Of a stretch of DNA of 64,000 nucleotides, positions 17,938 to 44,779 are shown piece by piece; the stretch's first letter is position 1; every line of letters begins with the position of its first letter. The notes beneath the pieces are model-generated. The model was not told the DNA's origin. It ran no database searches and was given only the letters and a program-made list of their open reading frames with translations. The stretch is from positions 18,401,069-18,465,068 of the forward strand of contig OZ038463.1 of assembly GCA_964036295.1 (NCBI GenBank), in the 5' to 3' direction. Source of the DNA: Plumapathes pennacea. Lineage: Eukaryota > Cnidaria > Anthozoa > Antipatharia > Myriopathidae. The position numbers were made by a program, and so were the translations under genes.

Positions 17938-18005
17938 AGTTGCTATGTTGGAGTGAAAATATTAAAAGTGAAAAAACGGTATTTATAATAGAAAAACGAT
18001 ACGTC

Positions 18006-18031
18006 ATCCCACGTGGTATGTCATGACGTCA
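18006..18031. promoter_or_regulatory. E-box palindrome plus CRE upstream of the Fic gene
   Basis: ATCCCACGTGGTAT at 18006-18019 and a perfect CRE TGACGTCA at 18024-18031. The longer block ACGTCATCCCACGTGG (from 18001) recurs at 18840 and 21271. Confidence 0.65.
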
Positions 18032-18034
18032 AAG

Positions 18035-18774
18035 TTAAACTTCAGTTTCTTTTAGCTGGTGAATTAGAGATGCTTCAGTGGCAGAGTCGCGCCTTTGTTT
18101 TAATTGTGCTTGGATGTCACGCTTGATGTCCTCGGTTTCTTGTTCTGAATCGATGTGACAATGGTGTTGACCGTGAGTTAGAGTGGTAGAGTCGCGTCGG
18201 GTACGGGGAATGGCTACCACACACTCGGGGTGAAAGATCCACAGTTTGCCGCTGTGAGGTGTTTCAAAACATTGTAGACAAGGCATGCGAACGTTGTAGC
18301 CTACGACGTTGCTGCAGTTAACGCATTCGATGTTTTGAATCACACAATAACAGTTTGGACCCCAGTGCCAATCACCTGTAAGTTCTACGGAACTGAAAGA
18401 AAATAAAAATTGCATAAGTAGACGAAAACAATGAATTAAATGGTAAAATGAAAAACTTACTCTTTTAGAGGCATGGAAGAGGTGTAGTACCACGGCTGAC
18501 ATATGAAACGATCGTGTGTGGATATGGCCCAGTGTTGATCGCGTAAACCTTTCACGCTGAAAATATGGTCACAAGTTTTGCAGCAAATAACCATGACGGC
18601 TTCGTCTCGAAAAACTTGCCAGTCAGTACCGCCTTCAATAGGACCGTAACCTCGTCTCTCAACGAGTTTTTCTTGATTCTTCCACGCATTTATTCGCATC
18701 AGTTTTTGTTGCCGGGTCATTGGCGGGTCTGGTATAGTCTTCCATTTATCAATATTCATGTACATGTTTGCCAT
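18035..18774 (-). CDS. Cys/His-rich accessory protein with one intron
   Basis: Coding exons 18774-18461 and 18392-18035, joined across a 68-bp intron with donor GTAAGT and acceptor TTTCTTTCAG; the joined frame gives 223 residues and stays open. Exon 1 has CCKTCDHIF and a nearby HW...H; exon 2 has three CxxC-type pairs (CVNC, CLQC, and a later HPEC), so it probably binds zinc. The C-terminus is charged and probably helical. No family recognised. It shares the start MANM and a promoter block with the Fic gene. Position suggests an early accessory role; function unknown. Confidence 0.75.
18393..18460 (-). other. Spliceosomal intron (68 bp)
   Basis: Minus strand: exon ...AAAGA, then GTAAGTTTTT ... 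TTTTCTTTCAG, then exon TTCCG. Splicing keeps the frame open, and the intron is AT-rich compared with its exons. Confidence 0.75.
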
Positions 18775-18951
18775 GTTTTTGTTTTGCTTGAGTGAAAATT
18801 ATTCAAAAGTGAAACAGATTTTATAATAGAAAAATGATACGTCATCCCACGTGGGATGCCATCACGTTGGTATCCCACGTGGGGTGACGTAAGCAAAGAT
18901 AAAAATAGTTGCGTTAATTTGTTTATAAAAACAGGTAGCGGAGAGAATGAA
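18775..18951. promoter_or_regulatory. Divergent promoter with two CACGTG palindromes
   Basis: Lies between the minus-strand gene at 18774 and the plus-strand gene at 18952. It contains ATCCCACGTGGGAT (18844-18857), ATCCCACGTGGGGT (18872-18885), a CRE-like TGACGTAA just after it, and a plus-strand TATA box (TTTATAAAA, about 18922). The left part resembles the Fic promoter base for base over about 90 bp. Confidence 0.7.
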
Positions 18952-19739
18952 ATGCATAACGCGAAAATGAAGTCAATCGTGTTGCTTGTAGTTGCGCTGT
19001 TTCTGTATGTCTTTTTTGTATCGGGGCGTTTCTTTCGAACACACCAGGACCGAGCAATGGCCAAAAGTTTAGCTCTCGCGATGCAGCGTTGGCAGCATTT
19101 CAAAAGATGCAGAATACCCAGACTATGCAGAAGGTGCAGAATGGAACGAATAGAACGAAGGAAACGGTAACGACTCCGCCAGGCTATGTACCATTTCGAG
19201 TGGGTCCGAACAAAACGATTCCTGTCAAGAATGGTTCAGTCGAGTCGCTTGGAACCTTTGACTCATTGGATGCAGCATTGGCGGCGTTTAACAAGCTACA
19301 GAATGTAACCCAGAAGAAGTCAACTAGAAAGCGCCGTGGAATTCTCGGATCATTACTACCGCTCGTCAAGATACCATCACCAACACAGCCACCGATTACC
19401 GGTCACGAGTCATTGCTGATTCTCTTTTGTCGCAGCAAGGCCTGGCAAAAGTTCGAGTCTGAGTCCATAAGCGAGTTCAAGATTTGGCTGATGCGCTTGC
19501 CGGAGCCGGTGCGATCCATTTTCATTCGCAAACTGTTTCTGCGGACGGATTTCAATGCACAATTGCAGCAAGTGGCGGAATGGATGCGGTGGCGAAAAGC
19601 CGTGGAGATATTCGACAAGGGCTGGGACAAGAAGGATTGGCCTTGTAATAATGCGGGTATGCGAGGTGAATGCGATCCATCTCTGTTGCTTAATAGTGAT
19701 GTGGTTCTTCGCTATGACATTCCGTGTCAGGAACTTTGA
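18952..19739 (+). pseudogene. Signal-anchor protein with DAALAAF repeats, frameshifted
   Basis: The ATG at 18952 follows a TATA box and opens with a hydrophobic segment (SIVLLVVALFLYVFFVSG), a likely signal anchor. That frame runs to 19170 but turns basic and looks non-coding after about 19060. From about 19040 another frame, open to 19739, carries two related units, SSRDAALAAFQKMQN and DSLDAALAAFNKLQN, then a KKSTRKRRG patch and a Trp-rich C-terminus. The two parts look like one gene with a one-base shift between 19030 and 19085; a programmed shift cannot be excluded. Family not recognised. An AATAAA follows at about 19792. Confidence 0.55.
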
Positions 19740-19946
19740 ACTTTTTGAAAAAGCGATGTTAAAAGTGTATTTTAAAAACACCATGTTTTGAAATAAAGAT
19801 TTTTTATTGTTCAATGTTTTTACATGTTTTATTTTTGTTTATCGAATGCCTTGTGAAGAAAGCGACCAAAGAAACTGTTATCAAATTGTCTTTGTTGTTC
19901 TTTTTCTCGCCTTTCTTGCTCTGCTTTGGTAATCCAGAGGCTTCCG

Positions 19947-20279
19947 TCATTCTGTTTCTTTTGCTTCTTCTTTTGCTTTTATAACAACACCACCAAATGC
20001 ACAGCGTACATCGTGTTCAGCTTCGCGGTACAGTGTGGTCATTTCTTGTTGTTGTTCTTCGCTTGTCATATGATAAAATATCAGTTCTTGCATGCGTGGG
20101 GAGTAAGTCTTGATAAGTTCCCGCCGCCGGTCTTCAATAAAGCCTTGTTTGCTTTGTGGAGTGAGATAATTCCAACTGTAGGAATATTTGGGGCGATGTG
20201 TGGCCATGTAGTCTTGAAATTGTTGGTGACGTTCTGCAATGTTTTGACGCGCTATTTTCATTTCTTGTCTAAAATTCAT
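19947..20279 (-). CDS. Unknown charged 110-residue protein
   Basis: ATG at 20279. Rich in Gln, Glu and Arg, mostly helical by composition, with HRPKYSYSWNYLTP near residue 28. It ends inside an AAAGCAAAAGAAGAAG tract. In the next frame, downstream of this tract, an open stretch (to about 19847) reads like a continuation with a GRFLHKAF ending, so the A-rich tract may hide a one-base slip. No recognised family. It lies in the left accessory block next to a 34-codon gene. Confidence 0.5.
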   Translation of the reverse strand: MNFRQEMKIARQNIAERHQQFQDYMATHRPKYSYSWNYLTPQSKQGFIEDRRRELIKTYSPRMQELIFYHMTSEEQQQEMTTLYREAEHDVRCAFGGVVIKAKEEAKETE

Positions 20280-20290
20280 TGTTTTTTAAC

Positions 20291-20395
20291 TTACCCGACA
20301 ACGACGCTTTCTACTTGATAGTTGTAATCCGTGTTGTATTCAGCGTATTCAGCTATGTAGGTATCGCAGCGGTCGCATTTAAGAAAATACAACAT
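20291..20395 (-). CDS. Small 34-residue CxxC protein
   Basis: ATG at 20395, TAA at 20291-20293. The N-terminus holds KCDRCDTYIAEY, a single CxxC, then a Tyr/Asn-rich acidic tail. The stop overlaps a good donor (GGGTAAGTT), so this may instead be a first exon; a matching acceptor is not obvious nearby. Function unknown. Confidence 0.4.
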   Translation of the reverse strand: MLYFLKCDRCDTYIAEYAEYNTDYNYQVESVVVG

Positions 20396-20446
20396 GCTCG
20401 CCGAAAGATAAATGTCGAATGAGAATAAAAGTAAAAATGTTTTTAT

Positions 20447-21069
20447 TTATGATTTCTTTACAAATGTAGTTACATACAGAGTGGTAGTGCTGCTGGTTAA
20501 GTTCAGTTCTTCCAGAGTTTCTTTGAATAAGGTTTCTTCAAGTTGTTTCCAGCGCTGCTCGTTGAGATAGGCGTTTTGGCTGCTATCACCTTTCATCTTG
20601 GCCAGTTCTTTCTGTTCGACACTGTTCCATTTGGCTTTCATTCGTGTGTAGACTTCATGCCAATGAGGGTAGTCAATGGCGCCACACACAATTCTTTGGT
20701 CCAAGCTCGAGTCGAGGCGGTACGAAAGTCTGGGCAATATTCGCTGCTTTGCTCATTGTGCATCACGTACTTGGCAATGGCGTCGAAGAGGACGAAGCTG
20801 AGTTGGCTGGCGGTCTGCAATAAGCTTTTTTGGGGAACAAAGTTGAGAGCGACGATCGCTTCTTCCAAGAGAGTTCGTTCGAACTCTTTTTGTTGCGCTT
20901 CGTTTTGTTCTTGCTCACGCTCTTCTTGGTCTCTTTCTGTGTATCGGTTGTGATACTGTTCGTTCATCCAGTCATAGATTTTTTTTCAATCTTCGTCACA
21001 GGGTTTGTAACGAATGAAAGAGTTTTGAGTGTATTTCGGAAATACACAGCGAGGTTTGGAGTTAGCCAT
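20447..21069 (-). pseudogene. Unknown accessory gene with stop and frameshift
   Basis: ATG at 21069 opens MANSKPRCVFPKYTQNSF. The frame meets TGA at 20986-20988, continues open (20967 to 20638) through a Glu/Gln-rich helix, then shifts frame near 20735 into a segment with DYPHWHEVYTRMKAKW and an end at 20447. Read together they describe one protein of about 205 residues, now broken twice. It shares the first three residues MAN with the Fic and 18774 genes. No family recognised. Confidence 0.55.
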
Positions 21070-21376
21070 AGTGATGAAAGCAATGGAAAGAAAAAACATT
21101 GACGGCGCGATGTGGAAAAAAGTAGAAAAAACGCGATTTATATAGGGCTTTCCCCGCTAAAAATAGGTTGCACCACGTGGGATGATGTATATAGGTTTTT
21201 CCGGATAAAAATAGGTTGTTGTTGTTGTTGACATTGACCCCACGTGGGATGATGCACGTGCTACTAGGTGACGTCATCCCACGTGGGGCGATAAAAATAA
21301 AAAACATGCTCACGAATCCCTTGGAAAAAATATCTTAAAAAGCGCGATGCTACAAAAGAAAAAATTATTCAGTGAC
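21070..21376. promoter_or_regulatory. Divergent promoter with three CACGTG palindromes
   Basis: Palindromes at 21172-21183 (ACCACGTGGGAT), 21237-21250 (ACCCCACGTGGGAT) and 21276-21289 (ATCCCACGTGGGGC), the last directly fused to a perfect CRE TGACGTCA (21269-21276). GCTAAAAATAGG and GATAAAAATAGG (21157-21215) resemble MEF2 sites. It serves the minus gene at 21069 and the large plus gene that follows. Confidence 0.7.
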
Positions 21377-21441
21377 ATGGCTCAGGCGATGCTGGATGCG
21401 AGTGTTTTATTCCTTTGAATAAGACACCGCGTAAACGAAAA

Positions 21442-24351
21442 ATGCCAAATGGGTCGGCGGCGAAAAAGTCAACAAAGAAAGCAGCGGGAAAGAAGAAAAA
21501 GGTGGAGAAGAAGACATCCGGCGTTGCCGGAGCCAGTGATGGCCCCCCTCTTGGAAAAGTTATACCGATTGACGTGTTCGTCTACGAAAAGAGAAGCGTC
21601 CCCTGGTACGACAACTGGCCCTGGGTCTACAAGTCTGAAGGAAAGCGTATGCATGGCGTGACCGGTGATCTGATTGAGGCGTCGAAAGGTGTGTTTACAG
21701 ATCCCTACGACGGAATTATTGTTACAAGCACATCACTGTTCAACGATCCATGCAAATATATGCCCTGGTACAATGTGGCGCCTTCGTGGCTAAGAGCAAC
21801 CCAGGAAAATTTTCGGAGAAATAATCACGCCTTGAAGATCAGCATTCTAGCTCCCTTTGGTCCCAGCCCGCCTTTAGGCGTGGGATATTATGAAAACGAA
21901 ATGAAGAAGCGTGCCGCGGCTTGGCTGAAAGTACCCCCCAGTGACCCAGATCTACGCCGAAGTCCTCAGTGGTATAATGAAGAACCGTATTCAGAGACGG
22001 GACCTATATCATTCTGGCGCACTCTGCATCCCTGCGAACGGTATCACATACTGTTGAAAGAGATTGTGGTGATTCGCGAGCTGTTCGAAGACAAGCCGGA
22101 GTGGAACAACCGCTTTCCGTTCTCGACCATTTGTCCTACGAGTAGCATAACGCCCATAATGCGATGGGAGCGGTACAACGTGTTGAACGGGAAAACGTGT
22201 CAGCCTCCGGAATTACGCGATTCTTGCGATGATCCTTATCCTTATCCTTATCCAGCCTTAGTGCCCGAGTCAGAAGCGGAGGCGGCATTACCGTGGTATG
22301 ACAAATATCCGTGGGTGAAGATTGCCTGTGTGGATCCTCGCACGCCCGACCCGACGCATGACCCGTTTCGTCGCGCGAATGTGCTCAACGGACAAGAAGT
22401 GTACCCCCCTGAATTGAATGCACCTGGCAAAGGCGATTGGTACAACGTGTCGTTGGCCAAAATTAAAGAGCGGGAGAAGGAGGAGATGCCTAAACTGAGA
22501 AAAAAGAAGAAACCTGAGGCGAAAGTGGAGCCCGTGAAAGGGATAGGCTTTCGAGCGCTATCTGAAAAGCAAATTCATGCGAAGCGCAAGAAGTGGATGC
22601 GCAGTGAAAAGGATCAAGAAAGGATCCAGTACGATGACATCGGCGGAACGCGCAAACTGTTTGTGAACGTTGCGTGTCCTGACGGTGAGCCAGGATGTGA
22701 AGTGTTACACAGTCGTGATGCCACCCCTGAGGAAACCGCCCAGTGGAAATCACAATTCCGCGGTGTGTTTGGCAATTATGAAGATATTCCGAAAGAGTTT
22801 TTGGAAATGATTCTCAAGGGGTCCGACGACGAAGGCGTGTATTATTGCACGTTCACGACAAAGAAGTATTTTCGAAAAATGGCCACGGTTGCGTACCAAA
22901 AGCTGTATCCTGTTGATCTACAGGAACTGGTGATGGCAAGAGATTTTCTGTCCAGCATCGAAGACAAGGAGATTCAAAAGAAGACGCGCCAGATGATCAA
23001 GGAGTCCCCCTATGCTATCAACTATGGGGAATATTCAGATCTGAGTACGGATCTGCTGGAGGAAATCACCTTTACGGGTACCGTGGACGAGGACAATCTG
23101 TACATGTCAACTAGCCAGACAACCCTCTTTTCCATGTCGAGATCTTTTCAGGAGTTAGCACGTCGAACCACATCCACCTACGAAAGCGTTGAGGAAGCCG
23201 TGGCAGCGCTGGAAGCCATTCCGCCACCCCCTCCCCCATCATCACCAGAAAAAAGAACGGGTCTGGATGTTGTGCAAGACGTGTATGCTATTCCAGAAGA
23301 GATCTTGAATGCGACAGATACGATTAAGGAGATCAACGAGCGGGTAGCAGAAGAAGAGGATCAGCAGAATGGTCTAGAGAAGACAAAACAGCAAGTGGAG
23401 ACTAGCAAGAAATGGTGTCAAAACATCCGGAAGGAGATTGAAGCGATGGAAAAGAATCTAAGAAATTTCAAGATGTGGAAAGACAAAACTGTGGAGGAAT
23501 TGGAGGAGGGGTACTATGAACTGGATTACAAGAAAGAGCAATTGGAGATCTTTCTGAATGATGGAAAGCCTGTAGTGAAACCGCTGGAAAAAGGCATCAT
23601 TGCCCGAATGGCTCGCGACGACTACGAAGAATGGAAGAAAGAAAATAAAGAAAAACCCAGCAAGGTCTACGAAGACTGGCGTCGGGGGTTGGACGAGGCT
23701 GCGAAAAAGAAGTCGCTAGAGTTGAGTGAGAGTCGGAATCGTCGCCGCACATTGCGCCAGCAAATGATTCGGAGTCGCGCTATTCCACCCTTGATGCATT
23801 GCTTTTGGGGAATTATCTTGGAAGAAATGCGAGCAACTATTGTTCGTTTTTGCCGCAGTGCCTGTTTGGGTTGTCGTTCTTCTTCCTGGAGGTTGCATGA
23901 CGCATGCACTCAGTCTATGCGTTCTGTCTGGAGTGAGCATGCGTTTCAGATTTTGAACGAACTGAATCTGGCCAGTATGGAGATGATGTGGAATGAAGTG
24001 ATGGAACAGCACCATCTTGATGTGACCGTAACTAAGAGCATTTTAACCATTGCGCCCCCAGCAGATTTGATTCGCATGTGGCAGCGGGAAACACGTTGCG
24101 ACCCACCCCCCGTCACTTTGGCAGCCATGTATGATGTGATTGCGCGTCAAGTGCCTGACCCTCCCCCCGAAGGTTCTGAAGATGCTGCGCTACTTCAGGA
24201 TTTCCCCACTTTGTGGGGCGCTTCAAGTGAACTGTTTCATCAACTGTATCGCCGCGTGGATGCGTTCATGTCTGACTATAAAGTGTCTGACATGTTTTTT
24301 GATGAGCATTTGAGTGATGTGGTGAAAGAGTTGTCAGAAAAGAGGCAGTAA
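21442..24351 (+). CDS. Large unknown protein with PWY repeats (969 residues)
   Basis: The longest plus-strand gene. The first ATG in the main frame is 21442; the frame is open from 21415. An ATG at 21377 in another frame gives only 13 codons before TGA and may be an upstream ORF or the true start followed by a slip. Order: Lys-rich N-terminus; a Trp/Tyr-rich region with five related units (PWYDNWPWV, PWYNVAPSW, PQWYNEEPY, PWYDKYPWV, DWYNVSLAK; residues about 55-340 of this start); a basic linker; a mixed alpha/beta region; a proline run near 600; a long coiled coil (about 630-790); a Cys/Trp-containing C-terminal region. No enzymatic motif, signal or membrane span seen. No family recognised; size and coiled coil suggest a structural or scaffold role. 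Confidence 0.75.
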   Translation: MPNGSAAKKSTKKAAGKKKKVEKKTSGVAGASDGPPLGKVIPIDVFVYEKRSVPWYDNWPWVYKSEGKRMHGVTGDLIEASKGVFTDPYDGIIVTSTSLFNDPCKYMPWYNVAPSWLRATQENFRRNNHALKISILAPFGPSPPLGVGYYENEMKKRAAAWLKVPPSDPDLRRSPQWYNEEPYSETGPISFWRTLHPCERYHILLKEIVVIRELFEDKPEWNNRFPFSTICPTSSITPIMRWERYNVLNGKTCQPPELRDSCDDPYPYPYPALVPESEAEAALPWYDKYPWVKIACVDPRTPDPTHDPFRRANVLNGQEVYPPELNAPGKGDWYNVSLAKIKEREKEEMPKLRKKKKPEAKVEPVKGIGFRALSEKQIHAKRKKWMRSEKDQERIQYDDIGGTRKLFVNVACPDGEPGCEVLHSRDATPEETAQWKSQFRGVFGNYEDIPKEFLEMILKGSDDEGVYYCTFTTKKYFRKMATVAYQKLYPVDLQELVMARDFLSSIEDKEIQKKTRQMIKESPYAINYGEYSDLSTDLLEEITFTGTVDEDNLYMSTSQTTLFSMSRSFQELARRTTSTYESVEEAVAALEAIPPPPPPSSPEKRTGLDVVQDVYAIPEEILNATDTIKEINERVAEEEDQQNGLEKTKQQVETSKKWCQNIRKEIEAMEKNLRNFKMWKDKTVEELEEGYYELDYKKEQLEIFLNDGKPVVKPLEKGIIARMARDDYEEWKKENKEKPSKVYEDWRRGLDEAAKKKSLELSESRNRRRTLRQQMIRSRAIPPLMHCFWGIILEEMRATIVRFCRSACLGCRSSSWRLHDACTQSMRSVWSEHAFQILNELNLASMEMMWNEVMEQHHLDVTVTKSILTIAPPADLIRMWQRETRCDPPPVTLAAMYDVIARQVPDPPPEGSEDAALLQDFPTLWGASSELFHQLYRRVDAFMSDYKVSDMFFDEHLSDVVKELSEKRQ

Positions 24352-24441
24352 AAAGTTGTTTGTAAAAGATTTTTATTACAAAATGTAAACTCGCCGTTTG
24401 CGAGGATCTTTTATTAAAAGATACATAGTGGATTCCTTTGC

Positions 24442-24825
24442 CTATCTGTGGTCGTTTGCTTCGGGTTCTTTGAGCGACTGGGGTGAGGGGGAGAGGGGGG
24501 GATACGGCTTTGGGGTTTGCGTGTGGCTGCTGGGATGCTGGGGGGAGGGTTTCTTGGGCGGCGCTGTGGCCATGACCACACGGGGTTGAGACGCGGCCGG
24601 CTGCTGTTCTTGATGCTCCTGGAATTTTTTCAGTTCATGCATAAAGGTGTCACGTTTTTGGGTCACTGAAGCGGCTGGATTGTCCAGGATAGCTTGGAGA
24701 CGTTTGCCTGTGGCTTGAGCATTGTAGTGGCGTTGATCAGGGGTCATACTCATAGGAGCGCTCCATTCGGGAGTGTCATATCGCTTCCTTTTTTGGGAAG
24801 AGGGGATCACAATGGTTTCGGTCAT
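24442..24825 (-). CDS. Small Pro/Gln-rich late protein
   Basis: 127 residues from ATG 24825. N-terminus with an SQKRKR basic patch, a helical middle (MHELKKFQEHQEQQ), then a low-complexity Pro/Ser/Thr tail. It starts 4 bp after the stop of the upstream gene, so the two probably share a transcript. No family recognised. Confidence 0.6.
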   Translation of the reverse strand: MTETIVIPSSQKRKRYDTPEWSAPMSMTPDQRHYNAQATGKRLQAILDNPAASVTQKRDTFMHELKKFQEHQEQQPAASQPRVVMATAPPKKPSPQHPSSHTQTPKPYPPLSPSPQSLKEPEANDHR

Positions 24826-24828
24826 TTT

Positions 24829-25176
24829 TTAAAAAGCGTGTTTGACTACTTTTCGAATACCCCAACGCAAGACCACGTGTAACGGAAGTCTTCCTGTTTG
24901 TTTGTTGCCTCGGAAGAGAGACTGGAGTCGACAGCGCTGCGTTCTGTGGTCACAGGCGGTTTCCAGGGCATGTCCGAATATTTGTCGTTTCACGCCTTTT
25001 ATGAGTTTGGGGGGTAAGGGGAGGGTGCCCATCTTGATTTTTTGCAAGACGTCTTGGGCAGCACGCAACTGTTGGGGACCAGCACGTATCAAGAGGCTGG
25101 GGTCGTGTTCGAGGTTGCACAAAAAATGCTTGTGTTTTCGCATGAGGGGGGTGGGGCCACGTTGCGGGGTCGCCAT
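24829..25176 (-). CDS. Conserved Polinton small protein (115 residues)
   Basis: Basic, helical protein next to the ATPase. The layout (a helix ending in QQLRAAQDVLQKI, then GTLPLPPKLIKGVKRQ, then a basic segment) resembles a small protein I know from many animal Polintons that sits beside the ATPase and capsid genes, often with an N-VPL-QK(R) core. The usual glycine-rich tail is absent. TATA box TATAAAATA upstream on the minus strand at about 25205-25215. Likely structural or core associated; assignment by resemblance and position only. Confidence 0.55.
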   Translation of the reverse strand: MATPQRGPTPLMRKHKHFLCNLEHDPSLLIRAGPQQLRAAQDVLQKIKMGTLPLPPKLIKGVKRQIFGHALETACDHRTQRCRLQSLFRGNKQTGRLPLHVVLRWGIRKVVKHAF

Positions 25177-25209
25177 GATTAATGTTTTTAGGAAAGGGAG
25201 CGCGGTATT

Positions 25210-25920
25210 TTATAGAGTTAAGGACGGGGAAAAGAGTCGAGTGGGTCCGTGCTGTTCGTTGGGGATTAAGTTGATGCGAAGGCGGCAGTCATCATCAGTG
25301 TCCATGGCGAAATCAATTGTAAAGTTCGAGTAAGGTTTGCGATAGGTGGTGCGTCGAGTCCAATTCATGATTTCACGTACTTGTTCTGCGGTGTAACTGC
25401 TGTGTTAGAATCGCCGTATGACGTCCATGTTGCGAAGTTCAATGATGAAAATAGCTACAGACACATTGCGAGCTATGTCTACATTGTGTTTTCCTTGGTG
25501 ATAGGGGTTTTGGGAGGTCATGATGGTAGTTACACCCTGATGGTGTGATTTTTCTACGAATACGCGTTGAATGGTATCATCATTGACGGCTGACCCCATT
25601 TGATCATCTAGGACCAGAATACGCACTTCGTTCTTGGGCGTCTTTTGGGGGAAGTCTTCTTCGATGGATTCGGGGAGTCCCTCTTTGAATTCCACGCCCA
25701 TTTTTTTCAAGTAATCATAGGCGGGTTGCCAAGAACCGTAGCGGAACACAATTTTGGTCACGGGCCATTGGTAAAATGTAATGAGAGTGGTCTTACCACT
25801 GTTAGAAGGTTCAGAAACGAGAATGCGCGCCGGGTGTTTGAAACGCAAGTTGAGTTCATGCGCATGTTTTTTGATGGTCTTGGGATACGTCAGCTGTGAC
25901 GTTGCGCGTCGTTTAGGCAT
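25210..25920 (-). pseudogene. Genome-packaging ATPase (A32/FtsK type), one in-frame stop
   Basis: P-loop ATPase of the virion-packaging family. Walker A region SEPSNSGKT near residue 38 (first Gly of the usual GxxxxGKT replaced by Ser), Walker B VRILVLDDQMG near 97, and a downstream TIMTSQNPYHQG segment typical of Polinton ATPases. TAA at 25405-25407 stops the frame after 171 codons; the same frame is open for a further 64 codons to 25210 and still looks coding (acidic, DTDDDC). The family is usually about 230-250 residues, which fits the whole span. The copy is therefore probably truncated. It lies between the small basic gene and the protease, a normal Polinton order. Confidence 0.85.
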
Positions 25921-25956
25921 AATGACACTGGGAATGAAAAGAAAAAATGAACATTT

Positions 25957-26517
25957 TTATTTATGCATTTTGTAGGTACAGGTTTGTCCTTTGGCTAGAC
26001 TAATATCAGAAATAACATCCTGGGGGTCCAAATCAGTGCTGGCCAAGTGAGCCATGTGGCGGTCGTTTTGGACGAACGCGAGAGGTTTCAGATAGGGTAG
26101 AGATTGAAAATCATAGCGTCCTTTGAGACCGCGTTCGGCGGCCACCACGATGCAGTAATAACCGCACGCGTTGCTCATGCCCTGGTACTGAATTAGATTT
26201 TGATGGGACGTGGAAAAGTGTTTTTGAAAACAATTGAACCAGGGGTTGCGATACTGTTGAAAATCTTGTCCGTAACTGTCAAAGATGTGCAATTGTGCGG
26301 GATCGTCCGCTCCCATGAGAATCCAATGTTCCCCTGACTTGGAGGCCGGATGCGTATTGACTACGAGCAGCCAGGGTCGAAAGTGACCGTGTGCGTCTAG
26401 CGGGAAAGGGGGTGGGAGTTCATCACAGGCAAACACGCCTCGAAACAGGTGTTGTGTGAGAGGGTGTTGGGATAAGAGTTGGTTGATTTGATCGGTCCAG
26501 AGGGCAGTCACATTCAT
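25957..26517 (-). CDS. Adenain-like cysteine protease
   Basis: Virion maturation protease of the adenovirus/Polinton type. ATG at 26517 (a longer open frame begins upstream only at a GTG). Catalytic set visible in the right order: His in GEHWILM (about 64), Asp in DSYG (about 80), Gln in YQGMSN (about 112) and Cys in NACGYYC (about 118). 186 residues, close to the 200 of adenain. Intact. In adenoviruses this enzyme cleaves at (M/I/L)xGG or similar sites; many proteins of this element carry a QRGG motif that may be its substrate. Starts a few bases after the preceding gene ends. Confidence 0.9.
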   Translation of the reverse strand: MNVTALWTDQINQLLSQHPLTQHLFRGVFACDELPPPFPLDAHGHFRPWLLVVNTHPASKSGEHWILMGADDPAQLHIFDSYGQDFQQYRNPWFNCFQKHFSTSHQNLIQYQGMSNACGYYCIVVAAERGLKGRYDFQSLPYLKPLAFVQNDRHMAHLASTDLDPQDVISDISLAKGQTCTYKMHK

Positions 26518-26521
26518 GTTT

Positions 26522-27989: not shown

Positions 27990-28033
27990 GATTAACAAAT
28001 GAGGGTAATGACATTCTATTTATACATTTTTTC

Positions 28034-28813: not shown

Positions 28814-28853
28814 GATGGTAAAATGGTAAAAATAAAGAACGTGTACCTCATAT

Positions 28854-29300: not shown

Positions 29301-29340
29301 CTTTTTGAACAAGTCTTTTCTATTTTCTCTTTTCTTTTAT

Positions 29341-29520: not shown

Positions 29521-29521
29521 G

Positions 29522-34650: not shown

Positions 34651-34688
34651 TTTTTAGTCTGCATGTTTTTTAAGAACAACGCGTTCTT

Positions 34689-37600: not shown

Positions 37601-38882
37601 GACAATACTGCTCTCCACACACGTGCGGAGGTCAATTAGCGCGCTGTACATACTCGCGACCACATGTTTCACAAAATCGCCATTCGTTGGTGCACTGACC
37701 ATGTTTTTTGTGTTTTTTGTGATTTTCCAAACACTGCGGTCCGTAAAAATAGCGACGACAAATTCCACACTGCTGTTCGCGCCGTTCATTTGTTTGGCGG
37801 TCTTGACAGCAATTGCTCTTGCAAGCCTCGCACAGAAGAGCGCATCGATGTTTCAAACGATGGTTGTGTGGTTTGTTTTGCAACTCGCAAAAATGTTTAG
37901 CCCCCATGTAGGCATTCATTCGAGGGATAAACACGTAATGACCGTCGTACAATACTAGATTCAAAATGTTGTGCGTGCGCACATCCTCTTCGTGCTGTTC
38001 CTTAAAGAAAAGAGCGTGATTCATATTGGTAGCATAGACGCGAATGATAAATCCCTTGGGTCGCAAATACTGAGCAAATTTCGCAAGTTCCGCTTGTCCT
38101 GACCGCTGATACACACCTACGTCACAAGCCAAACACAATTCGGCCGCTTTCCGTTTCCACAGCTCCGGATTGTTGCGCAATCGCTTCATCCCCCGACGCA
38201 CTTGTGCTCCCTCATTGTGATAGAGCATACCATACACCAAACATCGGGCCAAACACATCTGATCGTCTGCATCGAGAGGGGGACATACGACGCTTTTGTC
38301 ACGTTTCAAATTGTTCATAATGTTCACACCGCGCAGTCGTTTACCACCACCCCCCGCTGGCTGTCGTATGGCCGGCACATTGACAATAACGCTGTCATCA
38401 ATCTGGAAATCACGATGCGATTGCATCACCCGTCCAAATGTTTCATTGATTACCGTATCGGTCAAACGATAAGCTGGCATAAACGAAACACGAATCGGCA
38501 TTTGTAATTGCCGCGATCGAAACGTTATCAGAGCATAGTCATCGTTCTCCAAATTAGCTTCCGCCATGGCGCGATGAACAAGAGCAATCAACGCTTCGTT
38601 CAAATGTTCCATATTAGTGTGCAAATCACCGGCTTCGATGGCCGCTAATTGTCGGGCCCCGGGATGAAATTGCATGTCGTACTGTCGCACTCCAAATCGA
38701 CGCGATTCGCGTTCCGTGCGGTGTCGTAAATCCCATTCCAAATGTCCCGCCGCTGCTGCTGCGGCTTCCTCTTCTTCACCACCCCCCACTTGAATATCCA
38801 TATCTTCTAAAGGGTCCATCTCGAGTGGCTCCTCCAGAACAGCGCCCTCTCTTATAAGCTGCTCCAACCAATCGTCGTCCAT
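34689..38882 (-). pseudogene. PolB: Protein-primed DNA polymerase B, one in-frame TGA
   Basis: Replicates the Polinton. The frame spans 1,397 codons from ATG 38882, interrupted by TGA at 37632-37634. Upstream part (416 codons): acidic N-terminus, then a region with DDQMCLARCLVYG and a Cys/His-rich array (CEACKSNC, CGICRRYF, CETCGREY) as in the N-terminal extension of Polinton polymerases. Downstream part (977 codons): exonuclease motifs FYDIETQQQ and AHNGQGFDFQF and YRSVDVTIL; polymerase motif A YYDFKSLYP (about 487 of this part), B KQELNGMWGK (about 703), C YMDTDSIIF (about 804). All catalytic motifs are intact, so the only visible lesion is the stop. An ATG-equivalent restart at 37622 is not evident. 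Confidence 0.9.
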
Positions 38883-38933
38883 ATCCTATAAATAAAACCA
38901 TCTTTTTTAAATTATAATCATAATCACTTTATC

Positions 38934-39344
38934 ATGTCCGAAGACTGGAACTACGACAACACGCATTGGCGTAATACTCGTCGTATAGGATGGACTCAGA
39001 AAGTAAGGAATGCAAGAGATGCAAGAAGTAGACGATATACTCGCGAAAGCTATGATCAATTTTGGAGAGATGCAAAGAAATGGGCGACTCCGTCCCCACA
39101 CGTTCGCACACACAAGCGCCGTGCACGTACACACAGTGATTACCTCTACGGTAACGTTTTGCGCCCACGACCAGGATGGCAAGCAGCATTTCAAACAATG
39201 TACACGAACCAGATCAAACGGCGGCGTAAGCGCAAACGCAACACCAGAGAAGCTGCTCACAGAGCCACTCAAAGAGCATACAGGCGCGTTGTAAGAAAAA
39301 CACTTAAAAAACTCCCCTACACTACTGCTGCTGCATCGGCCTAA
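38934..39344 (+). CDS. Arg-rich protein, MSEDWNYDN paralogue 1
   Basis: 136 residues. Starts MSEDWNYDNTHWRNTRRIGW; the rest is very basic (KRRRKRKRNTREAAHRATQR). Likely a nucleic-acid-binding virion protein. Its first 20 codons match those of the next gene, and the spacing from the polymerase start (51 bp) makes a compact divergent promoter. Confidence 0.65.
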   Translation: MSEDWNYDNTHWRNTRRIGWTQKVRNARDARSRRYTRESYDQFWRDAKKWATPSPHVRTHKRRARTHSDYLYGNVLRPRPGWQAAFQTMYTNQIKRRRKRKRNTREAAHRATQRAYRRVVRKTLKKLPYTTAAASA

Positions 39345-39398
39345 ATTTTATAAAAGGCATTGCATCATCGTTGTTATCACCATTACATCATTAAAAAC

Positions 39399-39656
39399 AT
39401 GTCTGAAGACTGGAATTACGACAATACTCATGCACGGGACGTACGCAACACAAGAAGAATACGTTTTAACACCCCTAACAACCGTGGTCGCCGCAAAAAC
39501 CGCGGTCGAAACAGAAACAGCAGCAAGTGGAAAAAAGCTTTCCAGGAACTGGCGCAAATTAAACATCGTTTCAATCAATTAAAACGGCGCAAGACACCGC
39601 GCGTTTCTACTCACACATGCATTGTTCAAAAGACGGGAAGACGTAAAAGACGGTAA
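39399..39656 (+). CDS. Arg-rich protein, MSEDWNYDN paralogue 2
   Basis: 85 residues from ATG 39399. Same start MSEDWNYDNTH then RNTRRIRF, followed by GRRKNRGRNRN and a basic tail ending KTGRRKRR. A tandem duplicate that has diverged outside the N-terminus. Confidence 0.65.
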   Translation: MSEDWNYDNTHARDVRNTRRIRFNTPNNRGRRKNRGRNRNSSKWKKAFQELAQIKHRFNQLKRRKTPRVSTHTCIVQKTGRRKRR

Positions 39657-39704
39657 GAGGCTATAAAACAAACTGCTTCACTTAAAAGAATAAACACTTT
39701 CATC

Positions 39705-40130
39705 ATGGACACGGCCAAGTACCGCTTCAAGCAAGCCTTGCACGATTACCTTCACGACCGCGATCTCCAAAAACTTTTCAATCGAACCTGTACAAGTGGA
39801 TTGGCCATTCTTTTCCAATACTGTCGAGGTATTCTCAAAAACATTCATCCCAGCTTAATCACCATTCTGGCTCGACGCATGAAAAAGTATTTGGGCATTA
39901 CCATCCCCCCTCCCGGTTGCCACGTGACAGAAGAAAAAGATCATCAAGAACGCGAAAACACAATCATTCAAAACATCTTAGATGTGACTGACCGCTCCCC
40001 CAGCGTGCTGGATGGCGACCAAATTGATGGCCCCGCCCCACCCCCCTTAGAAACTTTGTTTGACGTCACCACCATCACCCCCCAGGAATACATGACACTT
40101 CCACTTGAATCACTTGTAAAACAGGTTTAA
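39705..40130 (+). CDS. Unknown 141-residue protein
   Basis: ATG 39705, preceded by a TATA-like CTATAAAACAA. Helical N-terminal half with LAILFQYCRGILKNIHPSL (moderately hydrophobic) and RRMKKYLGI; acidic, Pro-rich C-terminal half with DGPAPPPLETLF and TPQEYMTLP. No family recognised. Third plus-strand gene in the right accessory block. Confidence 0.55.
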   Translation: MDTAKYRFKQALHDYLHDRDLQKLFNRTCTSGLAILFQYCRGILKNIHPSLITILARRMKKYLGITIPPPGCHVTEEKDHQERENTIIQNILDVTDRSPSVLDGDQIDGPAPPPLETLFDVTTITPQEYMTLPLESLVKQV

Positions 40131-40277
40131 CAAAAACTTTTTCAAAAATAACAGCTTTTCTGTCGTCACTGAACAAATACGACTACTAGACAAAACAGTG
40201 TTTTTCACATCTGTCGCTGTTTCTTAGCAGACGGCTTTTCCTCATCTCCTCCTTCTTTCTCTTCTTCTTCTTTCTTT

Positions 40278-40919
40278 TCATCGCCGCGAGGCATCAAAAA
40301 AATTCACACTCGCTTTTACAAACCCGCCATGCACTCTCATACATATTTCTGGAAAGTATTTACAACATCCCAGATGACGTGGAACCAACAGTGGACTGAT
40401 ATCTGTATCATGACGGCATTCAAACAGAGTGCCATCATCATACAGACTGCATGCGCGACAACATCGCAGATCATGCACATCCAAAACACGCACTGCTGCC
40501 CAGGTCAAAAAACACTTCTCGTCATAACCCAGGACTGCCCAATCACTGCGGCACTGACTCATCATCCACCAGCACCGGTCCCAGCGCCCCTTTTCCACTA
40601 TCTTATCTTTCTTGACCTCACAGAGATACTTTTCATCAGGAAACAGCTTCTTGCAAGCCAAGCGCGACACTTCAATATTATTCAAAAACTTGCGCCGCTT
40701 TCCCTTAGCCCAGGTAAACTCTTCCCATTGATAAGGCGGTTTAGACATATCCCCCACGCTTATTTGAGGAAGATCATTAGCTTTCCATCGACCGTCCTGA
40801 ATAAAGACGAGAAAACCAAACCATTAACATTGCAACATTTTTCAGTTGCATTTGTTGTCATTTAACTAATTAAATTAAGTATTTACCTCAAGCACAATTT
40901 CGGACGGCCCTGCCTCCAT
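40278..40919 (-). CDS. Cys-rich accessory protein with one intron
   Basis: Exon 1 40919-40887 (11 codons, MEAGPSEIVLE), intron 40797-40886, exon 2 40796-40278; joined product about 183 residues. Exon 2 is rich in Cys and Trp (WDRCWWMMSQCRSDW, LRCCRACSLYDD, HLGCCKYF), probably metal-binding. Upstream, ATTTAATTTATAG can act as a TATA box in both directions for this gene and the one at 41033. Function unknown. Confidence 0.65.
40797..40886 (-). other. Spliceosomal intron (90 bp)
   Basis: Minus strand: exon end CTTGAG, donor GTAAATACTT, acceptor CGTCTTTATTCAG, exon start GACGG. It lies between codons and joins a short ATG exon to a long frame that has no convincing start of its own. Confidence 0.6.
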
Positions 40920-41032
40920 GGCATCTGAAACGGAATCTTGGGCGGGCTGACTTTGACTGGTCCCTCCTCTACCTTGATTGCGTCCTTGGAATGTCTATAA
41001 ATTAAATAATTTACCATTAGTTATCATTAATC

Positions 41033-41417
41033 ATGAATTACAACGCACTGGCTAACTTAGCGAATAATATACGCACAACTGCGAACATGGAACAAGCTGC
41101 GACTGACTTAATCCGAGAACTTCAATCGAATAATCAACCCGAGATTGAACACGCACCAATGACAGGACTTAACCCCCCCGTACCCTGCCAAAAAAACACC
41201 ATCGCCGCCAAAGAAAAAGAAAAGAAAACAAAGCAATGACGAATGGAATCGTGTCTTTAGCAAAAAAGGCAAACATAAAGCCCGCTACACAGCCATTCGC
41301 CCCGACGATGAATGGAGCGATATCTTTGATCGCTTATACCGTAACAGCCAAAAGCGCCGCAAAGATCGCAGAAGACGTCGGCGAAAAAATATCAGAAAAA
41401 AGAAAACACTTACTTGA
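41033..41417 (+). pseudogene. Basic accessory protein, frameshift at a C7 run
   Basis: ATG 41033. After 48 codons the frame passes CCCCCCC (41173-41179) and becomes unconvincing, ending at 41239. One base over, a coding-looking frame runs to 41417 with NDEWNRVFSKKGKHKARYT and a KDRRRRRRKNIRKKK tail. The homopolymer is the likely site of a one-base slip, in the genome or in sequencing. Product would be about 125 residues and nucleic-acid binding. Confidence 0.55.
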
Positions 41418-41423
41418 TTTCTT

Positions 41424-41680
41424 GTTCTTCTTCCATCAGCCATGATCACAGTTTTTGTGCTGACTTCTCCAAAAACCGCTCTTTTTATAACAAGAATATG
41501 CTTACGTCAGACCCACCTGCAACACAGCCCACGTGGGTGTCTAAAAATACATGATTGTCTAAAAATACATGTTTGTCTAAAAATACATTGTTTGTCAAAA
41601 ATAAAATTCTTGTGACATCATCCCACGTGGTATTATTTATTCCATAAATACAATAACGCGCTGTAATTATTTTTTACAGC
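41424..41680. promoter_or_regulatory. Promoter with two CACGTG palindromes and a CTAAAAATACAT array
   Basis: GCCCACGTGGGT (41527-41538) and ATCCCACGTGGTAT (41620-41633, preceded by TGACATC). Between them the unit TTGTCTAAAAATACAT occurs about three times plus a degenerate copy (41540-41605). TTATTCCATAAATA precedes the gene at 41681. Confidence 0.65.
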
Positions 41681-41875
41681 ATGGATGAAGTGCTAAAAAA
41701 GATTCAAACACGATTAGAAGAGAAAGAACAAATTCAAACACGATTAAGATTAAAAGCACAAGCACTCTCAACTCTCGCTGATTCACTCGAAAAAGAAATT
41801 ATACGGCAAAAACTTCGACTCCAAATCAGACGAAGACGAAGGAAACAGCGATGTCCCAAAAAATGTCGAAGATGA
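41681..41875 (+). CDS. Small coiled-coil protein, Arg-rich end
   Basis: 64 residues: helical Lys/Glu-rich repeat (KIQTRLEEKEQIQTRLRL, two copies of IQTRL) and a C-terminal QIRRRRRKQRCPKK patch. It overlaps the next gene by 25 bp in another frame. It may be the start of that gene with a slip, but both frames are open and plausible. Confidence 0.5.
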   Translation: MDEVLKKIQTRLEEKEQIQTRLRLKAQALSTLADSLEKEIIRQKLRLQIRRRRRKQRCPKKCRR

Positions 41876-42585
41876 GCAAACCGCTCAAACCGTTGAAACG
41901 CCGCCGACACTCCGACGAGAATGAACCGACAGCCAAAAAACAGAAACAAATTGTCTGGCAAAATGAGTGGGGAAAAGATGCGATCAATGATTTCAACTGG
42001 GAAAAACACGTTGATCAATCCATTCTACTCTATCACCGTCAACAAGAAACGCTCACCGACGATGAAGTCAATGCCTACTGTGACCGCTACCAGGAAGAGA
42101 TCGACTGGGTGAACTGGGGAAAAATAACGCCTCCCACCTGCTACAACGACAGCAGCCATGAAAAGATGAAAGCAGAAATCCAGGAACTCAAAGAAAGCGA
42201 GGAAGGGAAAGAATGGCTAAAGAAAAAGATTGCGAAAGAAAAGCAACGACTAATCCAAGAGAAGCAACTATTGGAACTGGATATCAGCATGCTGAAACAA
42301 GAGATCGCAGAGGACATGAAAGATATGTTCTATCCAGCTCCAGACATCAACCCGGATTGGGATAATGAAGTCGAGCGTTTTCGTCAACTAATGGATTGGG
42401 TCGATGAGTCCAAAGCAACCACGCGCGAAGACTTTGTCTGGTGGATGTTTGGCCTGGCCAAGGACAGACCTGAACTGGAAGAAGAAATCATGGAGAACCA
42501 CTACATGAAGCCGTGGTTTGAAGACAAACTACAAGTCATCCTGGATTATGGATTATTTGAAAAGAACAAAGACAGTCGTGCATAA
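41851..42585 (+). CDS. Unknown 244-residue acidic/Trp-rich protein
   Basis: ATG 41851 (others at codons 5 and 8). Basic N-terminus KPLKRRRHSD, then a charged helical body with WQNEWGKDAINDFNWEK, WVNWGK and EDFVWWMFGLAKD. A coiled-coil stretch lies near residues 115-150. No family recognised. Shares Trp-rich, charged character with the minus-strand gene at 42672. Poly(A) signals of both converge at 42590-42660. Confidence 0.65.
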   Translation: MSQKMSKMSKPLKPLKRRRHSDENEPTAKKQKQIVWQNEWGKDAINDFNWEKHVDQSILLYHRQQETLTDDEVNAYCDRYQEEIDWVNWGKITPPTCYNDSSHEKMKAEIQELKESEEGKEWLKKKIAKEKQRLIQEKQLLELDISMLKQEIAEDMKDMFYPAPDINPDWDNEVERFRQLMDWVDESKATTREDFVWWMFGLAKDRPELEEEIMENHYMKPWFEDKLQVILDYGLFEKNKDSRA

Positions 42586-42671
42586 AAGTTTGTTTTATTT
42601 TGAAGTCATGTAAACAAACATGAATAAAAACACTGTTTTTAAAATCAAATTGTGTTTACCATTTTTTGTCC

Positions 42672-43166
42672 TTAATCTACTAAACTTAATTTATAACACG
42701 CTTCTTTAAACAGTTCTTCTTGCTCCTCCATCCAGTCGCTCTCTTCCCAGTACTTGTTCATCAATTCGAGCTGGCGATCACTGTACCGTGCGGCCCGTAG
42801 AGCGCTTATTTCACTCCAGATATATCGCTGCTTGTCGCGTTCTTTTCCCTTCACCCAGGATTTTCTAATAGCCGCATCTTCTCGCCATTTTTTTCGCTGC
42901 TCGTGAATCAGATCGTGCATCTCTCGAAAATCCGCCAAATCATCGTCAGCCGTTAATTTTTCGTATTTTCGTCTCCCCACATATTTCAAGCTGACTTTTC
43001 CAATGACCGCAGCAGGTCTTATTATTCTCTTTTTCCTTCTTCTTTTTGTTATTTTCTCCTTCTTCTCTATTTTCTCTTTCTTCTCCTCTGTCTTCTCCCC
43101 CTTCTCTTCTGTTATCTTAACTTTCTTTAGAACCGGTTCGCTCACCTCCATCTCAAAAGACAGCAA
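42672..43166 (-). CDS. Unknown charged protein with basic N-terminus
   Basis: ATG 43166 or, five codons on, 43151. Lys/Glu-rich leader, KRRRKKRIIR patch, then helical segments MHDLIHEQRKKWREDA and YWEESDWMEEQEELF. 164 residues. No recognised domain. Convergent with the 41851 gene. Confidence 0.6.
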   Translation of the reverse strand: MLSFEMEVSEPVLKKVKITEEKGEKTEEKKEKIEKKEKITKRRRKKRIIRPAAVIGKVSLKYVGRRKYEKLTADDDLADFREMHDLIHEQRKKWREDAAIRKSWVKGKERDKQRYIWSEISALRAARYSDRQLELMNKYWEESDWMEEQEELFKEACYKLSLVD

Positions 43167-43267
43167 CCCACAACTGATTCAATTTTTATTTTCTAATTTC
43201 TATTATTAACTATTTTCAAAAGACTTTTAAAAAGTGTAGTGGTGTGTAAGCAGACCGCAAAAGTTAT

Positions 43268-43312
43268 AGATTTCCCGCCGGAATCGAACCGACCTCTCCG
43301 AAGAGAGTACCA
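43268..43312 (-). other. tRNA T-arm-like segment
   Basis: Minus strand: CTCTCTTCGGAGAG hairpin, then GTCGG-TTCGATT-CCGGC and GGGAAATC. The T arm is perfect, but no matching D arm, anticodon arm or 5' acceptor strand was found upstream. Probably a tRNA fragment or a chance/retained 3' structure, not a working tRNA. Confidence 0.35.
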
Positions 43313-43427
43313 GAAGAGAAATTTTTGTGTGCGGTCCATGTGTGCACATGTTGTTTGTTTTTATTTTTTATTTACAACACGAAAAAAGGCAAAACGACAA
43401 AACGGCAACAGGATCAAAAAACGACTT

Positions 43428-44265
43428 TTAACAAACACCATAATTGTGTTCAACGTTGGCATGGCAAAAACAATGCTGTGATCCGTGCTGGCATGTGGGG
43501 CGGTCGAAAGCAGACCGCAGCTCGTAGTGGCTCGTGGTGGTAGTGGTGTCCGCTATGGCGTTGAACGCGTCCAACAAATTCTGCACGGCATCCACTGTCC
43601 CCCTTAAGTCATCCTCGGTGAGGATGCGTGGCCCATCCTCGTCGTCCTCGTTCATTAAAATTGGCTGCACTTTTGTCGGTTCCGTTGGGACACCGTCACA
43701 CCAAGCTTGAACGGGATCGTCAGTGCTGTGGTCGGAATATTGTGCAGTGCTATAAAGTAAAAAACATGAATGAGAAAAAGATGCAAAAACCATGAACATC
43801 ATTTTTAATTCAAGCTACTCACGCATAACTGTCGAAGCTAAACTCTGACCCGTCTGGTGCTGTTTCACTCAGCATTGGGTCATTGTCAAGCGCCGCCATC
43901 ATCTCAGCACCGGTATCAGAACTGAGCAATGGACTGATTCCGCTCACTTCAGAAACACTGCTCTCAACCGTAATCACCGATGGATTCGTCGTAATCGCGT
44001 CTCCGGCTCTCCGAACAGCATCCTTTACTACGTCCCTGACGGTGGAATCAATGGCCGGTCTTACCGGGCACTCATCCATGTAGTGTTGTCCGGCAAATGC
44101 CGGACAAGCAGGATCCTCGCACATTCTCGCGGGAGCAAGCGTCTTCAATACTCTTACTAGTTTGCTATAGGATTGCTTGCCATCTGGTAGGATGTATGGC
44201 TCCAGTTCGTATGCCACCTCTAGAGCCATTTCCTCCCATGTCATGTCGGACAAACTCTTTGCCAT
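43428..44265 (-). CDS. Unknown acidic accessory protein with one intron
   Basis: Exon 1 44265-43823, intron 43750-43822, exon 2 43749-43428; joined product about 254 residues and open throughout. Exon 1: MAKSLSDMTWEEMALEVAYE, a Cys/His cluster (MCEDPACPAF ... HYMDEC) that may bind zinc, then a Ser/Thr/Asp-rich stretch. Exon 2: acidic, NEDDEDGPRILTEDDL, ending with TCQHGSQHCFCHANVEH, a second metal-binding candidate. Its promoter holds the heat-shock element and CACGTG palindromes. No family recognised. Confidence 0.65.
43750..43822 (-). other. Spliceosomal intron (73 bp)
   Basis: Minus strand: exon ...AGTTATGC, donor GTGAGTAGC, acceptor TTTTTTACTTTATAG, exon CACTGC. The frame is maintained across it. 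Confidence 0.7.
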
Positions 44266-44779
44266 CTTTTCTTTGTGAAATAATCTTCCAAGCGAAATAA
44301 ACAGATCAAGAACCAAGTCGAAAGGTGTCAAATTTCACGTGCGAATGGTTTTTATACTAGCTGTCAACAAATCCAGTTTCAAACCTGTTTTAACTCACCC
44401 ACCACTCACAGCCAAGAACAATTTCGCGCCTAAACTACCATGTGCTCACTTTGATTGACAGATAAGCCGCTAATCCAATCAGAACTGTACACATTCCACA
44501 CCACGTGGAGGCCAACTCAAACTGGTCTGTAAGTAGTTTTCCGCCGGTCAGTAAAGTAGTTTTCCGGACAAAACCCATTATAGTGTCAAAGAACTTTCTA
44601 GAACATTCTATTTCTAGAACTTTCTAGAACAACAACAACCCCACGTGGGATTCTTTCACTAATGAACTCATTAGCGTCGTCAATAAATTTATTTTTAAAA
44701 CCCACGTGGGATAGTTGCACGTAAAAACCTTTATAAACAGCTTTTTAAAAATATAACATTAACAAAACTCATTGTTTCC
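44266..44779. promoter_or_regulatory. Divergent promoter: heat-shock element and CACGTG palindromes
   Basis: Gene-free 0.5 kb between a minus and a plus gene. CACGTG palindromes at 44499-44510, 44638-44651 and 44700-44712. A dense nGAAn array lies at 44591-44629. Near 44525-44570 the unit AGTAGTTTTCCG occurs twice. A TATA-like TTTATAAACAG lies at about 44731. Confidence 0.7.
44591..44629. promoter_or_regulatory. Heat-shock element, eight nGAAn units
   Basis: GAAct TTCta GAAca TTC, then one extra base, then TTCta GAAct TTCta GAA. Units start at 44591, 44596, 44601, 44606, 44612, 44617, 44622 and 44627. Alternating GAA/TTC at 5-bp steps is the consensus for HSF1 trimers; three units suffice in animals. 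Confidence 0.75.

Follow-up and report, generated by a model that had tools for sequence, protein, structure and literature searches.

Extended CACGTG palindromes at most terminal accessory-gene starts of one Polinton subfamily in Plumapathes pennacea, possibly read by a host bHLH-leucine-zipper factor

Extended Palindromes at the Accessory-Gene Starts of a Polinton

We analyzed a window of 64,000 nucleotides from Plumapathes pennacea (NCBI GenBank assembly GCA_964036295.1, contig OZ038463.1, positions 18,401,069 to 18,465,068 of the forward strand) which contains a complete Polinton/Maverick-type element of 29,057 bp (positions 16861..45917 of the window). An earlier note on this DNA had described about eleven extended CACGTG palindromes at five sites upstream of accessory genes near the two ends of the element, and had read them as a shared early-gene switch bound by a factor of the basic helix-loop-helix (bHLH) type. 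The locus thus raises the question whether these palindromes (boxes) set the accessory genes apart from the core genes and which protein might read them. From the sequence comparisons described below we estimate, with a probability of roughly 0.64, that the boxes act as upstream activator sites of a promoter module common to most of the terminal accessory genes in one Polinton subfamily and that a host bHLH-leucine-zipper (bHLH-Zip) factor reads them.

The hexamer CACGTG occurs 24 times in the window against 12.9 expected. Its extended form CCACGTGG occurs 11 times, every copy within the Polinton, at 18.0, 18.85, 21.2-21.3, 41.5-41.6 and 44.5-44.7 kb (sites A to E), whereas 0.40 copies are expected in the element and the maximum in 300 dinucleotide shuffles was 3; the number and the five sites are as the earlier note had them. 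The longer form CCCACGTGGG is present 7 times in the Polinton (0.03 expected from dinucleotide shuffles). No CCACGTGG is found in the core region (24352-41050; 0.27 expected) or in either flank of the Polinton, and under an even spread over the element the chance of finding 0 of 11 boxes in the core is 8e-5, with the reservation that the boxes are not independent. A search for ATCCCACGTGGGAT with at most 3 mismatches gave 11 matches in the window, 10 of them inside the Polinton and all 10 with the CACGTG core intact. The full ATCCCACGTGGGAT is found in only one of the 11 boxes (box B1), and the best conserved unit among aligned relatives is approximately YCCCACGTGG(G/T). Paired E-boxes with ChREBP-type spacing were not seen among the CACGTG coordinates of the window. 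The boxes and the sites resembling a cyclic AMP response element (CRE) beside them are listed here, with the number of aligned relatives that keep CCACGTGG.

17930..18033, minus strand: promoter cassette with box A, a CRE-like site, a TATA-like word (about 17987-17980) and a start codon
17999-18006: CRE-like site of the cassette
18006..18019: box A (ATCCCACGTGGTAT), ahead of Fic, private to the window's copy
18837..18844: CRE-like partner of box B1 (ATACGTCA), at 3 bp from CACGTG
18844..18857: box B1 (ATCCCACGTGGGAT, perfect), before the Yippee-like gene (minus strand), kept in 18 of 20
18872..18885: box B2 (ATCCCACGTGGGGT), before the plus-strand gene at about 18.95 kb, kept in 17 of 20
18885..18892: CRE-like partner of box B2 (TGACGTAA), at 3 bp from CACGTG
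21170..21183: box C1, before the minus-strand gene at about 21.07 kb, kept in 9 of 20 and deleted in 11
21237..21250: box C2, kept in 18 of 20
21269..21276: partner of box C3, a full CRE (TGACGTCA), at 3 bp from CACGTG
21276..21289: box C3, before the plus-strand gene at about 21.4 kb, kept in 20 of 20
41526..41539: box D1, before the minus-strand gene at about 41.44 kb, kept in 17 of 20
41613..41620: CRE-like partner of box D2 (TGACATCA), at 3 bp from CACGTG
41620..41633: box D2, before the plus-strand gene at about 41.68 kb, kept in 15 of 20
44498..44511: box E1 (CCACGTGG only), far upstream of the minus-strand gene 44265, kept in 10 of 20
44638..44651: box E2, kept in 18 of 20
44699..44712: box E3, before the plus-strand gene at about 44.78 kb, kept in 12 of 20

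Divergent accessory genes flank each of the sites B, C, D and E, and site A precedes only the Fic gene. A CCACGTGG is present within 260 bp of 9 of the 11 accessory starts and of 0 of the 17 core starts (Fisher p 8e-6, with boxes shared between divergent genes, the nine boxed starts sharing 11 boxes in five stretches). Equal density in core promoters, which the earlier note had named as evidence to the contrary, was not seen. Among the accessory starts 9 of 11 are preceded by a TATA-like word within 110 bp, and among the core starts 9 of 17 are; it is the box, and not TATA, that separates the two gene classes. Where a boxed start has a TATA-like word, the centre of the nearest box lies 16-45 bp upstream of that word in seven of eight cases; for the eighth (gene 44265) the distance is 148 bp. 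Contrary to the claim that CACGTG in the core occurs solely inside coding DNA, the copies at 24874 and 31672 are intergenic (51 and 73 bp before an ATG), and CACGTG is kept there in 2 and 5 of 10 fetched copies, respectively.

Conservation of the Boxes in Related Elements

DNA searches with each of the promoters B to E yielded 20-odd copies, of which 20 of each were fetched and aligned. CCACGTGG was retained at 154 of 200 box positions (20 relatives of each of the four promoters), with 9 to 20 of 20 copies per box, and mean identity was 0.968 in the 80 box columns compared to 0.861 in 1093 other promoter columns, the latter counted only where at least 8 relatives were ungapped. Among the single-base changes of the core, 16 of 24 gave CACATG or CATGTG, which are CpG transitions; such decay would be expected if integrated copies were methylated. 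The box also persists where the intergenic DNA can no longer be aligned, as TATCCCACGTGGGATG in a relative at 65-71% PolB identity and as TGACGTCAACCCACGTGG in a relative at 77%. On contig C1 (not to be confused with box C1), 21 of the 44 CCCACGTGGG among the matches listed fall in four family members, at the places of B, C, D or E or, for the member at 65-71%, at distances like those of C and D, with two of the 21 just within the border of the core after scaling. The switch shared by terminal accessory genes that had been proposed is consistent with the contrast between 9 of 11 and 0 of 17 starts, with this conservation and with the recurrence in the relatives at 65-71% and 77%.

E2F-like words were noted at two places. 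Of 20 relatives (L146-L165), one retains the bare CACGTG of position 44336, ten have CACGCG and five CATGCG, and these variants lie inside an E2F-like word near a TATA-like word. In the 65-71% relative (L166), several TTTGGCG/CGCCAAA words, E2F-like by eye, surround the box.

A CRE-Like Site at Fixed Distance From the Box

The surroundings of each CACGTG were scanned for TGACGTCA with at most 2 mismatches at a distance of 3 bp and at 14 other spacings. On 6 of 22 sides (5 of the 11 boxes of the window) a CRE-like site lies at a distance of exactly 3 bp, compared to 0 or 1 side at each of the other 14 spacings (binomial p 7e-8 for the excess at 3 bp). For 157 boxes in the fetched copies, the partner lies at 3 bp on 77 sides, and no other spacing has more than 13. 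The centres of the two sites are 10 bp apart, i.e., one helical turn, and the 3-bp spacing therefore places both on the same face of the helix. The 16-mer ACGTCANCCCACGTGG, which joins both sites, has 55 matches in the genome (290 Mb scanned in 24 contigs) and its reversed control has 0; 54 matches lie in the A/B or C promoters of the family of the window's Polinton, and the remaining one lies beside the D-equivalent gene of the 77% relative. As its 15 fixed bases hardly recur by chance, ACGTCANCCCACGTGG demonstrates conservation within the family and not avoidance by host genes. A literature search found nothing that joins a composite of TGACGTCA and CACGTG with a virus and CREB.

A Promoter Cassette Copied Before the Fic Gene

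The 18.0 kb site had been counted among the shared sites, which holds for B to E and does not hold for site A. The flanks of this site are shared, but they enclose 104 bp in the window's copy and 15-40 bp without a box in 12 of 12 relatives, and the Fic open reading frame (ORF) now starts with MANM, like the presumed first exon of the Yippee-like gene. This insert is up to 88% identical to site-B promoters of the family (B blocks at C2:27.82 Mb and C8:6.10 Mb) and 82% identical to the window's own site B. The closer match to B blocks of other elements suggests that the cassette was copied between elements. Four sites are thus common to the family and site A is new in the window's copy. The CRE partner at fixed spacing, the copied cassette at 18.0 kb and the restriction to one subfamily were unforeseen by the earlier note. 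A promoter has here been copied together with its start codon onto a new gene, a possible route for such elements to rewire accessory genes.

Candidate Binders and Alternative Explanations

The CACGTG core with C/G flanks, as in the E-box of Myc-Max type bHLH-Zip factors, is present in all 11 CCACGTGG. In the literature, CCACGTGG is given as the top 8-mer for Myc-Max and CCCACGTGGG as the top 10-mer for yeast Pho4. The host genome, searched for Myc_N, has three matches above the cut-off at two loci. No bHLH or basic leucine zipper (bZIP) domain was detected in the 11 terminal or near-terminal ORFs scanned, with the split genes at about 20.4, 21.07 and 41.44 kb outside the scan. Together with the intact CACGTG in 10 of 10 matches, these observations agree with the bHLH-type binder that had been suggested from the sequence. 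Among bHLH-Zip factors a Myc-Max type dimer is the most likely candidate, with USF as the precedent from adenovirus.

The most likely mechanism would be as follows. A host bHLH-leucine-zipper dimer, of the Myc-Max type in the first place, would bind CCCACGTGG, and a host CREB/ATF-type bZIP dimer would bind alongside wherever the CRE-like site is present. The bound factors would recruit TBP and RNA polymerase II, so that the accessory genes would start first, in host cells in which those factors are active. The core genes, being boxless, would depend on something else, e.g., genome replication or an early product. The sequences themselves show the places of the boxes, their conservation, the fixed spacing, the TATA positions, the limit to the subfamily and the copied cassette; we infer the identity of the binder and, by analogy, activation rather than repression and the early timing. 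More speculatively, and with the odds in our view somewhat against it, the subfamily may have wired its terminal host-interaction genes to growth-control factors of the host (Myc-Max type and CREB/ATF) through a composite site of fixed geometry, carried by a portable cassette with start codon that newly captured Fic; reactivation would then track the proliferative state of the host, as a counterpart of the adenovirus early programme.

Another host factor might read the boxes: a bHLH protein such as USF, MITF/TFE or a CLOCK-type protein, a bZIP protein of the CREB3/XBP1/ATF6 group, or CSL (RBPJ/Su(H)). We consider this unlikely, if well worth weighing. CSL prefers CGTGGGAA, and CREB3/XBP1 can bind CCACGT-type sites, which speaks for it. 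CSL would however let the left CA vary, and CACGTG is intact in 10 of 10 matches with at most 3 mismatches. The preferred flanks are TCACGTGA for MITF/TFE and GCCACGTGGC for CREB3, whereas the boxes have C/G. Regarding factors with T/A flanks, one study states that a change from GCACGTGC to TCACGTGA cut Myc-Max and Max binding four- to five-fold (PMC4242493). A reading by USF is still a reading by a host bHLH-Zip factor and falls within the wider form of our explanation.

It is quite improbable that a protein encoded by the element itself binds the extended palindrome and auto-regulates the accessory genes. All 55 ACGTCANCCCACGTGG matches are confined to the family or its 77% relative, the Polinton encodes a Yippee-type zinc finger, and the palindrome, as conserved, is somewhat longer than a usual bHLH site of 8-10 bp. 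The absence of a motif with 15 fixed bases from elsewhere is however about what chance would give, and the ORFs scanned have no bHLH or bZIP domain (the three split genes being outside the scan). The site beside the box is a standard bZIP site, which also argues for a host protein, and the core of the box equals the published optimal bHLH sites.

We give little credence to the view that the boxes are common merely through copying of the cassette around the element, without need of any function. Site A is such a copy, as its 104 bp and its MANM start indicate. Sites B, C, D and E, used as queries, gave no mutual matches at E <= 0.001; they share no detectable similarity, so that recent copying does not explain those four sites, and the motif is better kept than the rest of the promoters. 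Just as remote is a role of the palindromes in replication, packaging or chromatin (boundary or silencing) in place of transcription start, for which their palindromic form and their location toward both ends of a linear element could be cited, since they lie in gene-start stretches upstream of TATA-like words and outside the terminal repeats, and the only new copy arrived with a TATA-like word and a start codon before one gene.

Limits of the Family and Points Against a Host-Read Activator Site

Several results weigh against activator sites read by a host bHLH-Zip factor. Within the window, the accessory starts at about 20.4 and 43.15 kb have no box, so that the marking of accessory promoters, as previously claimed, extends to 9 of 11 and not to all. 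Start sites were placed by hand, 7 of the 11 accessory ones being a few bases off the ATG, and 8 of the 17 core starts have no TATA-like word, so that a TATA-only description fits half of the core. Retention is weak for C1 (9/20), E1 (10/20) and E3 (12/20), and the p value of the column test (1.3e-7) is too small since the copies share descent. The CRE-like partner (at most 2 mismatches) is missing at 3 bp from 6 of 11 boxes; the 3-bp test was devised after inspecting the sequence, and an earlier test over spacings 1-6 was weaker (5 of 11 boxes compared to 92 of 963 positions).

Beyond the window, 29 PolB-centred loci were compared (two of the 29, L073 and L074, overlap), and 11 of them have CCACGTGG in the PolB region. 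These relatives range from about 55% to 89% identity, some being at 55-58%. The absence of the box from core DNA, which stands for the window's copy, therefore has exceptions within the family. CCCACGTGGG is missing from two relatives at 46-55% PolB identity, and the eight 10-kb end stretches of four relatives at about 46-55% contain one CCACGTGG. The possibility raised before that related Polintons lack the motif at homologous promoters is not borne out within the family, whose promoters keep it. In tblastn searches of the end stretches of the four distant relatives, no Fic, Yippee-like, 19-kb or 40-45-kb accessory genes were found, and only a 78-amino acid match to the 969-amino acid protein was obtained. 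As the accessory genes were mostly not found there, the absence of the box in these relatives decides little. Inverted repeats long enough for element ends were detected in only one (E23) of the five relatives whose end stretches were compared, so that true element ends were shown for one of the four distant relatives, and the stretches of the others may not reach theirs.

The relatives at about 50% repeat other palindromes in their end stretches: CTCTATAGAG occurs five times in L082 and CTATTAATAG three times in L079. Exact ATCCCACGTGGGAT was also found in 45 stretches of IMG/VR; this set was dropped, two stretches (L002 and L024) carrying phage head and terminase genes and the other 43 having only been counted. 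The tailed-phage contig L002 has two CCCACGTGGG 51 bp apart between genes (L002:4388-4448), perhaps an operator of its own.

Comparison With Known Viral Promoters

ATF/CRE sites occur in adenovirus early promoters, and an E-box marks the major late unit. At the adenovirus major late promoter, the host bHLH-Zip factor USF uses a CACGTG upstream of TATA (PMC10570711). The likeness is that of a DNA virus with a CACGTG for a host bHLH-Zip factor upstream of TATA, the binder in the Polinton being a candidate; unlike adenovirus, the Polinton may pair E-box and CRE at 3 bp, with repetition at divergent accessory promoters and absence from core starts. Mavirus and EMALE elements have type-specific promoter motifs, and their TCTA is shared with the CroV late promoter (PMC8547959). 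The likeness is that of a type-specific promoter motif in an endogenous element related to Polintons. The factor there is however thought to come from a co-infecting giant virus, whereas the sites in the Polinton match metazoan host factors and mark a part of the genes. Myc-Max and Pho4 sites are otherwise described on cellular genes, whereas here a virus-like element has eleven, five of them with a CRE-like partner. In zebrafish, one study describes a Polinton fragment at which a host gene starts in a tissue-specific manner (PMC9341505). A literature search, with most subscription papers outside its reach, found no promoter motif for animal Polintons. Viral promoters built from sites for host factors are known, and the likely reading would add an animal Polinton to them. 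Being conserved and restricted to one gene class and one subfamily, the control site points to candidate host factors that may turn such an element on.

The Element and Its Genomic Setting

The Polinton is bounded by terminal inverted repeats of 131 bp with 92% identity (16861-16991 and 45787-45917) and flanked by a 6-bp target duplication CGCACT (16855-16860 and 45918-45923). It interrupts a long terminal repeat (LTR)-type retroelement (13485-16693 on the left, 45830-47470 on the right), with reverse transcriptase, RNase H and integrase ORFs to the left and aspartyl protease and gag-like (PNMA) ORFs to the right. With adintoviruses and Polintons it shares a PolB, an integrase with rve and chromodomain, and the terminal inverted repeats. 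Its integrase is of the retrovirus type with a chromodomain (PF00665 and PF00385, Pfam), and PolB is predicted by PF03175 to be a viral-type family B DNA polymerase, with relatives that include the Rhodactis coral adintovirus and cnidarian proteins. The main genes are as follows.

17149..17937, minus strand: Fic/DOC domain protein, 262 amino acids (PF02661, 4.4e-15)
18035..18502, minus strand: Yippee-like zinc finger (YPEH2ZP) ORF (PF14976, 5.1e-16)
21442..24351, plus strand: 969-amino acid accessory ORF, downstream of site C
24352..41050: core region with integrase (33511-34650), PolB (34689-37157) and presumed capsid, protease and ATPase genes
41851..42585, plus strand: 244-amino acid accessory ORF, downstream of site D
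44886..45545, plus strand: 219-amino acid accessory ORF, downstream of site E

The presumed capsid, protease and ATPase had no match in Pfam or PHROG, and the presumed capsid had none among PDB sequences or in the protein search; a Walker-A-like motif was read by eye within 25405-25920. In IMG/VR no PolB relative was confirmed, whether the single protein or alignment A1 served as the query. The Fic-domain protein and the Yippee-type zinc finger adjoin in the Polinton (17149-18502). Upstream of the Yippee-like ORF an open stretch from about 18774 (MANMYMN...), read by eye, resembles its exon 1.

A second, AT-rich Polinton-like gene set lies at 53490-63704, with a packaging-ATPase-like PF04665 match at 61775-62422. 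A palindrome enrichment scan of this second element (52.5-64 kb) detected no strongly repeated palindrome and no CCACGTGG. A 71-bp tandem repeat in the set (54804-54941) holds a palindrome of the CCGACGCGTCGG type.

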